From positions 1 to 43,313 of the forward strand of contig JAPKYC010000137.1 in assembly GCA_026394505.1 (NCBI GenBank): a DNA stretch of 43,313 bases, read 5' to 3'. Source of the stretch: Methanothrix sp. GTDB taxonomy: Archaea; Halobacteriota; Methanosarcinia; Methanotrichales; Methanotrichaceae. Shown here piece after piece: positions 28,313-32,814 of this stretch. The position numbers and the translations under genes were made by a program. The notes under the pieces are model-generated. The model was given only the letters and a program-made list of their open reading frames with translations. It was not told the DNA's origin and did not search any database. Positions within the stretch are counted from its first letter, which is position 1, and each line of letters opens with the position of its first letter.

Positions 28313-30319
28313 ATGATTCAACCCCCCCTAAAGCTCTTCATCTACTTGGCTGCGTTATTCTTCCTATTATCAGTCTCGCTGCCGGCATCCGGCGCTGATG
28401 CTCTCTCCCCCTCTCCTGATGCGGCTAGCCTATTCCTGAATGGCACAACTTTCCAAGATGCAGATGGCGACAGCTTCTTCTCGGCTGGCGAAATGGGCCT
28501 CGCGAATAGGACCATCCGGCTTATCCTGGGAGGAAAGGAGATCTCCAACACCACCACCAACGAATCGGGGCAGTACCTCTTCGCCAATCTCTCCCCCGGC
28601 CGGTACGTACTGAGAGCAGATCCCTTTTCCGGATGGAACCGGACCGCTCCCGGAGCCGGCCGCTATGAAGTGACGCTCTCCGACCAGCCCGGCTTTGGCC
28701 TGGACTATGGCTTTTTCTCCTCAAGCAATCTCGCCGCCTCCCTTCCCGCTCGGCAGTATCCTCTCATGCGCCCCACACGAGAAGAGGCGGGCCTTTGGGC
28801 CGGGCAGTACAATGCTTCTGCTAAGGTCTATCTCAGTCCCGATATCGCGGCAAAGATAGCTGCCGCACCTGTCGCTTCCGTCAACCTGCTGGGTCGGCTC
28901 AAGTACACACCCTCCGAGCGCGACCAGGGGCGCTGCGGCAACTGCTGGGCCTGGGCGGGAACAGGCGTGATGGAGATCGATTATGCCCGGCAGAAGGGCA
29001 CCTCTGAGCGGCTCTCCTTGCAGTACCTTGATTCCAACTACAACGGCGCCTGTTGCGGCGGCTGGCTGACCGGCCTGGCCAGCTTTTACAGGGCCAAGGG
29101 CATAATGGTCCCCTGGTCCAACGCCAACGCCTATTATCGGGATGGAAGCACAGGCTGCGGTGCATGCTCGCCGGTCTCCGCCTCATCCATCTCCACCGAT
29201 CCCCATTATGATCTGACGACCATCTCCACCAGCACCGTTCCCTCGCACGGACTGGCCAAAGAGACGGCCATCTCCAACATCAAGAACGTCTTGTTGCAGG
29301 GCAAAGCCATCTGGTTTGCCTACTATTTGCCAGATAGCAGTGCCTGGAGCAACTTCTTCAGCTTCTGGAGCGCACAGCCGGAGACCGCCGTATGGCAGCC
29401 GGACTATGCCTGCGGCCGGTCGTATAACTATCAGAGCGGAGGCGGGCATGCCGTTCTTTGCGTGGGCTATGATGATACCAATCCCAATAACCGCTACTGG
29501 ATCATGCTCAATAGCTGGGGAACGACTGCAGGGCGACCGGCCGGCCTCTTCCGGGTGAACATGGACATGAACTACGATTGCTCCTGCACTGGCCTTGGAT
29601 ATGTCTTCTACTGGATGACTCTGGATATGAGCTACCAGGGAATCAAAAACAATCCCCCGCAAAAGCCTGCCAAGCCCCAAGGTACTGCTGCCGGCATTGT
29701 GCAGAGATCTTACAGTTACACCGCCTCGGCGATTGATCCGGATGGCGATGATGTCCAGCTTACCTTCGACTGGGGAGACGCAAGCACATCGGTGACAAAA
29801 TTCGCGAAATTTGCGGAGAAGATCAGCTTATCTCACGCTTGGCAGAAGACAGGTACATACTATGTGCGGGCTAAGGCCACAGACAGCAAGGGTGGTCAGT
29901 CCGCCTGGTCAACATCTCTTGCGGTCAAGATAACAGCCAATACCCCCCCTAAAAACCCCTCCGCTCCCGTGGGTGTCGCATCCGGCTATGTGGGCAAGTC
30001 CTATTCCTTCAAAGGCTATACCACGGATCTCAACAAAGACCAGATCTTCTATACCTTCGACTGGGGTGACGGCAGTACCTCCCAAACCGACCTGGTAAAT
30101 TCGGGAACTTCGGTGCGCGTTTCGCATACCTGGAGCTTGGCTGGAACCTATCTGGTCCGGGTCATGGCCACAGACAGCAATGAAGCTGCATCTCTCTGGT
30201 CCACCAGCAAAACGGTGAAAATTTATAATGCATCCCGCCGCTCATTGGCCAGTCTTTCTCTAGCGGCAAAAACAGAAAAAGCGGGACAGGGCAAAAAGAC
30301 CTGCCCCTGTTCGAAATAA
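28313..30319 (+). CDS. Secreted papain-family (C1A) cysteine protease with SdrD B-like N-terminal and two PKD-like C-terminal domains
   Basis: Signal peptide; NGTTFQDADGDSFFSAGEMGLANRTIRLIL; DQGRCGNCWAWAGTGVMEIDYA; GGGHAVLCVGYDD...YWIMLNSWG; two YTxSAIDPDGDDVQLTFDWGD-type repeats. Confidence 0.88.
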   Translation: MIQPPLKLFIYLAALFFLLSVSLPASGADALSPSPDAASLFLNGTTFQDADGDSFFSAGEMGLANRTIRLILGGKEISNTTTNESGQYLFANLSPGRYVLRADPFSGWNRTAPGAGRYEVTLSDQPGFGLDYGFFSSSNLAASLPARQYPLMRPTREEAGLWAGQYNASAKVYLSPDIAAKIAAAPVASVNLLGRLKYTPSERDQGRCGNCWAWAGTGVMEIDYARQKGTSERLSLQYLDSNYNGACCGGWLTGLASFYRAKGIMVPWSNANAYYRDGSTGCGACSPVSASSISTDPHYDLTTISTSTVPSHGLAKETAISNIKNVLLQGKAIWFAYYLPDSSAWSNFFSFWSAQPETAVWQPDYACGRSYNYQSGGGHAVLCVGYDDTNPNNRYWIMLNSWGTTAGRPAGLFRVNMDMNYDCSCTGLGYVFYWMTLDMSYQGIKNNPPQKPAKPQGTAAGIVQRSYSYTASAIDPDGDDVQLTFDWGDASTSVTKFAKFAEKISLSHAWQKTGTYYVRAKATDSKGGQSAWSTSLAVKITANTPPKNPSAPVGVASGYVGKSYSFKGYTTDLNKDQIFYTFDWGDGSTSQTDLVNSGTSVRVSHTWSLAGTYLVRVMATDSNEAASLWSTSKTVKIYNASRRSLASLSLAAKTEKAGQGKKTCPCSK

Positions 30320-31645: not shown

Positions 31646-31721
31646 CTCCTGTTTTTAGGGTCCTGCGGCAACAAGGAGGAGCAACAGATATAAAGCATGG
31701 GTCAGACGGAGAATTGCAAGG

Positions 31722-31871
31722 GCCGGGGTGGCAGAGCGGACAATTTCTGCGGCTTTTGGGCCGCGGGAGTTCATACGCGGCAGGCTCGAGACCTGTTGTC
31801 CCTTCCAGGGACGCTTGGGTTCAAAATGGCGGGGGCGCGATAGCTCTCTCAGGAAAATCCCAACCCCGGCG
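31722..31871 (+). tRNA. tRNA-Ser(CGA) interrupted by two insertions (about 28 nt at the D-stem/anticodon-stem junction, about 32 nt in the T-loop)
   Basis: Acceptor GCCGGGG(31722-31728)/CCCCGGC(31864-31870) with G73; D-stem GCAG/CTGC; anticodon arm GCAGG-CTCGAGA-CCTGT (anticodon CGA); variable arm GTCCC-TTCCA-GGGAC; T-stem TTGGG/CCCAA with T-loop TTCAAAT split by an insertion. Confidence 0.75.
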
Positions 31872-31905
31872 CTATTTAATTATATTAAAAAAAGGCGATA
31901 AAATT

Positions 31906-32055
31906 ATGGCTAGATTTCCAGAAGCAGAAAAGAGAATCTTGAATCTCAAGATATGCATGAACTGCAACGCACGAAATCCCGTAAGAGCGACTCGCTGCCG
32001 CAAGTGCGGTTATAAAGGACTGAGGATGAAGTCCAAGGAAAACAAGACCGCTTAA
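31906..32055 (+). CDS. rpl40e: Ribosomal protein eL40
   Basis: [49 protein letters not shown] (49 aa, four Cys). The track start at 31714 runs through the tRNA and is wrong. Confidence 0.95.
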
Positions 32056-32814
32056 ATGATGTTTGAGAGGGGCAGAGTCGAGCTGCTGCTGGCCGCCGCA
32101 GTAGCCGAGCATGGCGCCGGACATCTCACTTTGATTGATCCGGATTCCCAGAGCCCGAGCGAGGCCGGCACAATGGCCCTGGCAGCGGCCAAAGGCGGCA
32201 CCGATGCCATCATGGTAGGCGGCTCGGTAGGGGCGGCAGGAATTCTTCTTCATGAGACGGTGCGAGAGATCAAGGAGATGACCGATCTGCCGGTAATTCT
32301 CTTTCCCAGCAGCGTGGCAGGCCTATGTGAAAATGCCGATGCCGTCTTTTTTATGAGCCTTTTAAATTCGCGCTCCCCAGCTTACATCGTGGAAAACCAG
32401 GCGCTTGGTGCTCCGTTGATCCTGCGCTACGGACTGGAGCCCATACCCATGGCTTATATCATCATTGAGCCGGGCGGCACAGTGGGATTTGTGGGCGATG
32501 CCCGCCTCATACCGCGAAGAAAGCCGGAGCTGGCTGCCGCCTATGCCCTGTCTGCCAGGTTCATGGGCATGAGGCTGGTATACCTTGAGGCGGGCTCAGG
32601 TGCAGACTCTCCTGTGCCCGCCGGCATGGTGGCCCTGGTCAAGAAAATTTTGGGAGACGTCCTGCTCATAGTAGGCGGCGGGATTCGCAGCGGCGGAGCA
32701 GCGGCAGAGCTGGTGAATGCTGGCGCAGACCTGATTGTCACTGGAACTGGTGTAGAGAAGAGCCGAGATGTCACCTCTTTTGTCTCCGAGCTGACAAACT
32801 CCATTAGAAGGTAG
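32056..32814 (+). CDS. Geranylgeranylglyceryl phosphate synthase (PcrB-like)
   Basis: HLTLIDPDSQ...GGTDAIMVGGSVG...VILFPSS...YIIIEPGGTVGFVGDARLIPR...LLIVGGGIRSGGAAAELVNAGADLIVTGTGVE. Confidence 0.93.
   Translation: MMFERGRVELLLAAAVAEHGAGHLTLIDPDSQSPSEAGTMALAAAKGGTDAIMVGGSVGAAGILLHETVREIKEMTDLPVILFPSSVAGLCENADAVFFMSLLNSRSPAYIVENQALGAPLILRYGLEPIPMAYIIIEPGGTVGFVGDARLIPRRKPELAAAYALSARFMGMRLVYLEAGSGADSPVPAGMVALVKKILGDVLLIVGGGIRSGGAAAELVNAGADLIVTGTGVEKSRDVTSFVSELTNSIRR

Follow-up and report, generated by a model that had tools for sequence, protein, structure and literature searches.

A tRNA-Ser(CGA) gene of the Methanotrichaceae with two predicted non-canonical introns, in the D-arm and in the T-loop

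The window analysed here, a stretch of 43,313 nucleotides that makes up contig C23 of a Methanothrix assembly (2.3 Mb, 310 contigs, 78% complete), contains what is very probably, from comparison of sequences, a functional gene for tRNA-Ser(CGA) with two protein-spliced introns at the non-canonical sites 21/22 and 59/60 (Table 1); the site number 21/22 is our own assignment within the usual tRNA numbering. An earlier note made from the letters of the window had recognized tRNA-Ser(CGA) with G73, with its acceptor, anticodon, variable and T stems all intact and its anticodon loop, CTCGAGA, uninterrupted, and the sequence bears this out. Its further proposal, that a methanogen has two non-canonical introns in one tRNA gene, is supported by the gene itself, by conservation throughout the family and by a model of the spliced form. 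The mature tRNA predicted by splicing is 87 nt long with a normal T-loop, TTCAAAT, and the CCA end is not encoded. On comparative grounds this is a doubly interrupted tRNA gene of a known type in an unexpected lineage, and a well supported one.

Table 1. Features of the tRNA-Ser(CGA) locus and its surroundings (positions in the window)
Feature	Position	Strand	Remark
Promoter element GCAACAGATATAAA (putative), BRE/TATA-like, archaeal	31681..31694	+	27-41 nt 5′ of tRNA
tRNA-Ser(CGA) gene, with two extra segments	31722-31871	+	sequence reading
Exon 1, positions 1-21: acceptor 5′ strand, D-stem 5′ strand, D-loop	31722..31743	+	
Intron 1 (predicted), 31 nt, site 21/22 in D-arm	31744..31774	+	junction reproduced in intronless orthologues
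Exon 2, positions 22-59: D-stem 3′ strand, anticodon arm (CTCGAGA), variable arm; also T-stem 5′ strand and most of T-loop	31775..31825	+	
Intron 2 (predicted), 32 nt, site 59/60 in T-loop	31826..31857	+	missing from other families' orthologues
Exon 3, positions 60-73: T-stem and acceptor 3′ strands, discriminator G73	31858..31871	+	
Ribosomal protein L40e gene, downstream	31906..32055	+	Pfam PF01020
PcrB/geranylgeranylglyceryl phosphate synthase family gene, next after L40e	32056..32814	+	Pfam PF01884

Standard searches pass over the gene. ARAGORN reports 0 tRNA genes in the window, an Rfam search of 31650-31950 matched nothing at the gathering threshold or even at E<=10, and the locus is absent among the 32 RF00005 matches of the genome. 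A covariance model, R1, was built from eight spliced orthologues, with the window's own spliced sequence represented in it. The earlier note had allowed that such a model might reject the locus, but R1 accepts it with 87.3 bits (genome-wide E 2.6e-14, the inserts being treated as insertions), and with these values a chance match is excluded. The two-insert gene was also found independently in dozens of genomes. Because the usual tRNA tools overlook it, such genomes may seem to be without tRNA-Ser(CGA).

In an alignment of the region upstream of the gene from 28 family members, the element GCAACAGATATAAA is near-invariant, and it is likely to be the promoter element of the tRNA gene. The tRNA-L40e neighborhood is kept within the genus: a DNA search recovered the full-length gene, with L40e downstream, from 15 same-genus genomes, all with both inserts. 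Further 5′, the window has a 668-aa ORF (28313-30319) that carries PKD, SdrD B-like and papain-family peptidase domains and probably encodes a secreted or surface protein.

Excision of intron 1 two nucleotides into each bulge leaves the exon ends GGACAA and ACGCGG (in many relatives the 5′ exon end is GGACTA instead), and in intronless orthologues from families f6, f7, f12 and f22 the D-arm junction reads GGACTAACGCGGCAGG, which is the predicted spliced product. One f6 genus has an intronless gene that differs in the anticodon stem. Exon 1 equals the 5′ part of the intronless orthologues L072-L075 bar small differences, for example one D-loop base. Insert 2 sits between TTCAAA and T, and its removal restores a normal T-loop; in other families the orthologues carry TTCAAAT or TTCGAAT with no insert. 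The spliced 87-mer agrees with intronless orthologues across the D-arm, anticodon arm and T-loop, and since the spliced sequence can be read straight from these orthologues, the splice points that the earlier note had considered ambiguous are settled. Its second insert, of about 32 nt in the T-loop with AAAAT at 31823-31827 and 31854-31858, corresponds to the 32 nt at 59/60. As for its first, the GCGGC repeats at 31749-31753 and 31777-31781 are as described, but the size and site are not: the intron has 31 nt, not about 28 nt, and is placed at 21/22. The repeat is incidental, as it is not conserved in relatives; GCGGAC and GTYYANACGCGGCAGG around intron 1 are kept among them, and the letters near the repeat vary. 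A further candidate, with cuts after TAAT and between AAAC and GC to give the product GGACTAATGCG, was rejected because the intronless orthologues of several families read GGACTAACGCG.

The D-stem of the mature tRNA-Ser(CGA) has an A12.C23 mismatch that is conserved over several families with or without the intron (L072-L075 included), with U23 in place of C23 in family f5. As intronless genes also carry the mismatch, it is not a splicing artefact.

The bulge-helix-bulge (BHB) motif of intron 1 has an outer helix GC/GC, which is 2 bp in this genome, a central helix GGAC/GTTC, bulges AAT and ATAC, and an inner helix TTCTGCGGC/GCCGCGGGA. For intron 2 the outer helix is the T-stem, TTGGG/CCCAA, the central helix is TTCA/GGAA with A.G as its fourth pair, and the bulges are AAA and AAT. 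Junction sequences excised in a fixed register numbered 37 distinct for intron 1 and 25 distinct for intron 2. Standard pairs fill 94.8% of the pair cells of BHB 1, with all slid registers at <=52%, and 90.3% of those of BHB 2, with slid registers at <=64%; the double-sided changes number 31 against a shuffle mean of 10.9 in BHB 1 and 21 against 6.4 in BHB 2 (0/500 shuffles reaching the count in each case), keeping in mind that the pairs were counted in an alignment cut down to the surroundings of the proposed motif, with the register chosen beforehand, and that kinship among the sequences inflates the shuffle control. Because the shuffles keep relatedness and the register was preset, the slid registers are the better test. 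The 4-bp central helix is paired in 100% of cells for intron 1 and in 80% for intron 2, and there is one compensated pair in the outer helix of intron 2.

Neither motif has the strict hBHBh′ form. In intron 1 the 5′ bulge has 3 nt and the 3′ bulge 4 nt, the latter in 37/37 distinct sequences, with an outer helix of just 2 bp in this genome, and in intron 2 the departure is the A.G pair of the window copy. The earlier note had fitted three of four central pairs at best, which is correct for the T-loop intron in this genome but not for several relatives, 5/25 distinct sequences having all four pairs (A-U in fourth place; TTCA/TGAA). Left unconstrained, the RNA has a minimum-energy fold (-73.3) from which the BHBs are missing, and a fold constrained to contain them is less stable, at -64.1. 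For the full Methanothrix pre-tRNA, RNAfold prefers a GCG/CGC plus AATTTC/GGAGTT helix over the BHB of intron 1. That fold was rejected as the splicing structure since other families are without the AATTTC/GGAGTT helix and keep GGAC/GTYY.

It is very improbable that the locus is instead a decaying pseudo-tRNA, with UCG read by tRNA-Ser(UGA) via wobble, an option that the earlier note had kept in view. Its being overlooked by standard tRNA tools is in keeping with decay, as is the presence of a Ser(TGA) gene in the host genome and its relatives, but the exons are near-invariant over ten genera with the changes concentrated in the intron loops, both BHB motifs show compensatory changes, the promoter with its TATA element is conserved, and a single copy is kept throughout, complete relatives included. 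With R1, no second Ser(CGA) scoring near the two-intron copy was found in G004 (a complete genome), G234 or G217, and the serine entries in the tRNA list of G234 are GCT, TGA and GGA only. UCG makes up 61 of the 445 serine codons in 16 long ORFs of the window.

Two other readings accept an active gene and differ over the segments. Their retention, to give either a tRNA enlarged by a long D-arm and a long T-arm or an RNA of some other function, would suit the stable folding of the unspliced RNA; this too has very little probability, as 32 extra nt within the T-loop preclude the normal elbow, the orthologues that have no introns encode precisely the product of splicing, and the inserts drift in length and sequence while the BHB pairing persists. 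Least probable of all is relaxed-motif splicing of a 28-nt insert lying between the GCGGC repeats at the junction of D-stem and anticodon-stem. Though its excision, which would join GGACAATTTCTGC to GGC, would leave a 4-bp D-stem, GCAG/CTGC, in this genome, relatives do not keep the CTGC plus GCGGC letters of its 5′ boundary, the intronless orthologues have another junction, and the conserved GGAC/GTYY helix with its bulges puts the cuts at 21/22.

For a functional gene with introns spliced at 21/22 and 59/60, transcription would start from the conserved TATA element just 5′ of the gene, and each intron would fold with its flanking exons into a BHB. EndA, of the alpha'2 homodimer type, would then cleave two nucleotides into each bulge, and the ligase RtcB would join the exons to yield the 87-nt tRNA-Ser with T-loop TTCAAAT. 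Because the D-loop and the T-loop are both interrupted, the elbow and the T-loop modifications would form only after splicing. The host genome encodes RtcB (588 bits) and has EndA (PF01974) in two fragments at contig ends (G000:C153 and G000:C133; L039, L040). The split is an assembly gap, and the two contig ends overlap. In relatives EndA is full length, with the catalytic Y/H/K triad in its second half, and matches the A. fulgidus EndA; that of the same-genus genome G004 aligns to it (1r0v/2gjw) over residues 26-347 with E 1e-37. Judged by these alignments, the Methanotrichaceae EndA is of the alpha'2 type, a single protein with duplicated domains. The Crenarchaea-specific loop was not found in the G004 protein, which aligns to wild-type A. 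fulgidus EndA without an insertion and shows a gap against 3p1y, which we take to be the loop-bearing construct. EndA of the alpha'2 type has been described as narrow in specificity (PMC6379350, PMC4033280), and the A. fulgidus enzyme can excise a bulge-helix-loop intron at 37/38 from a full-length pre-tRNA (PMC6379350).

The distribution of the introns was followed in 238 genomes of the class with R1, plus follow-up reads. Every complete Ser(CGA) gene read in family f1 (ten genera: g1, g9-g17) has both introns. Genes with the T-loop intron were seen in Methanotrichaceae alone, and the 34 named records with it all have Methanothrix, Methanosaeta, Methanotrichaceae or broader archaeal labels. 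The D-arm intron extends to further families of Methanosarcinia and to one family (f8) of another class, and f3, f4 and f5 have it alone. A canonical 37/38 intron with no D-arm intron is present in f2 (L079, L080) and in f18 of another class (L249, L266); one f18 genus is intronless, and f6 and f7 are without introns. These sequences are most simply read as an ancient D-arm intron that was lost several times, with the T-loop intron acquired in the Methanotrichaceae ancestor, and the tRNA-Ser(CGA) gene looks like an intron hot spot. In f8 (L247, L248, L265), which belongs to another class of the phylum, the D-arm intron at 21/22 is short, and the variable arm has an insertion of ~35 nt whose ends fit a BHB by eye (GATG outer, CCTT/GAGG central).

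With R1, two g1 genomes, both 58-66% complete, gave no match, and in G014 the copy of the gene is broken at contig ends. No clear Ser(CGA) was seen in G228 (93% complete) or in the one g8 genome. Nor did G110 and G176, large complete f3 genomes of genera g34 and g38, have a clear tRNA-Ser(CGA) match with this model, and in these two either the gene is lost or it has a divergent form.

Another tRNA gene of the family, for tRNA-Arg(CCT), has a D-loop insertion of ~40-50 nt in genus g15, where G229 and G234 carry identical copies, and in G212 of g13, at loci L205:52-176 (G234:C1:79951-80075), L222 and L224, where ARAGORN mis-places the gene. No intron interrupts this gene in the remaining family members read or in the Methanosarcinaceae-like f3. 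This is a second case of a predicted non-canonical intron, with a patchy distribution.

Euryarchaeal tRNA introns have been described as single and at the canonical site, with alpha4 and alpha2 endonucleases that require strict motifs (PMC4090602, PMC4033280). The only Euryarchaeota listed with multi-intron tRNAs are Methanopyrus kandleri and Methanothermobacter (M. thermautotrophicus) (PMC4033280). Non-canonical introns have been mentioned for three thermophilic euryarchaeal methanogens (PMC3218864). One of the three may be Methanosaeta thermophila, and so the gene may be partly recorded there or in GtRNAdb. It seems reasonably probable that in this lineage a loop-less alpha'2 enzyme splices two non-canonical sites whose motifs each depart slightly from the strict form, that the rule confining alpha'2 to strict motifs and canonical sites fails there, and that the D-arm intron is old, being shared with another class. 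An acetate-using methanogen family keeps two predicted non-canonical introns in its sole Ser(CGA) tRNA alongside an alpha'2 enzyme, providing natural substrates for testing the rule of endonuclease specificity, and one gene offers a series of intron states, in the D-arm, anticodon loop, variable arm and T-loop.

Among known systems, the multi-intron tRNAs of Thermoproteales are alike in having short non-canonical introns, bounded by BHB motifs, within one tRNA, with 59/60 among the sites listed; Pyrobaculum tRNA-Pro(UGG), for instance, has introns at 25/26 and 56/57 plus one at the canonical site (PMC4090602). The Thermoproteales have an (alpha-beta)2 heterotetrameric endonuclease of broad specificity, whereas that of the Methanotrichaceae is alpha'2, and there is no evidence in the Methanotrichaceae case, in contrast to Thermoproteales, for intron transposition between tRNAs. 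M. kandleri and Methanothermobacter are likewise methanogens with multi-intron tRNAs, but M. kandleri has an (alpha-beta)2 enzyme, and the Methanotrichaceae are a separate lineage in which the two-intron gene is fixed family-wide. The hBHBh′ introns of Haloferax at 37/38 (PMC7714728) are similar in that a BHB is recognized by an alpha2-type endonuclease, but differ in site and in having neither the 4-nt bulge of intron 1 nor the A.G central helix of intron 2. The D-arm introns of f3, f4, f5 and f8 have the same site, 21/22, and the same central helix, GGAC/GTYY, but are not accompanied by a T-loop intron, f8 having its variable-arm insertion instead.
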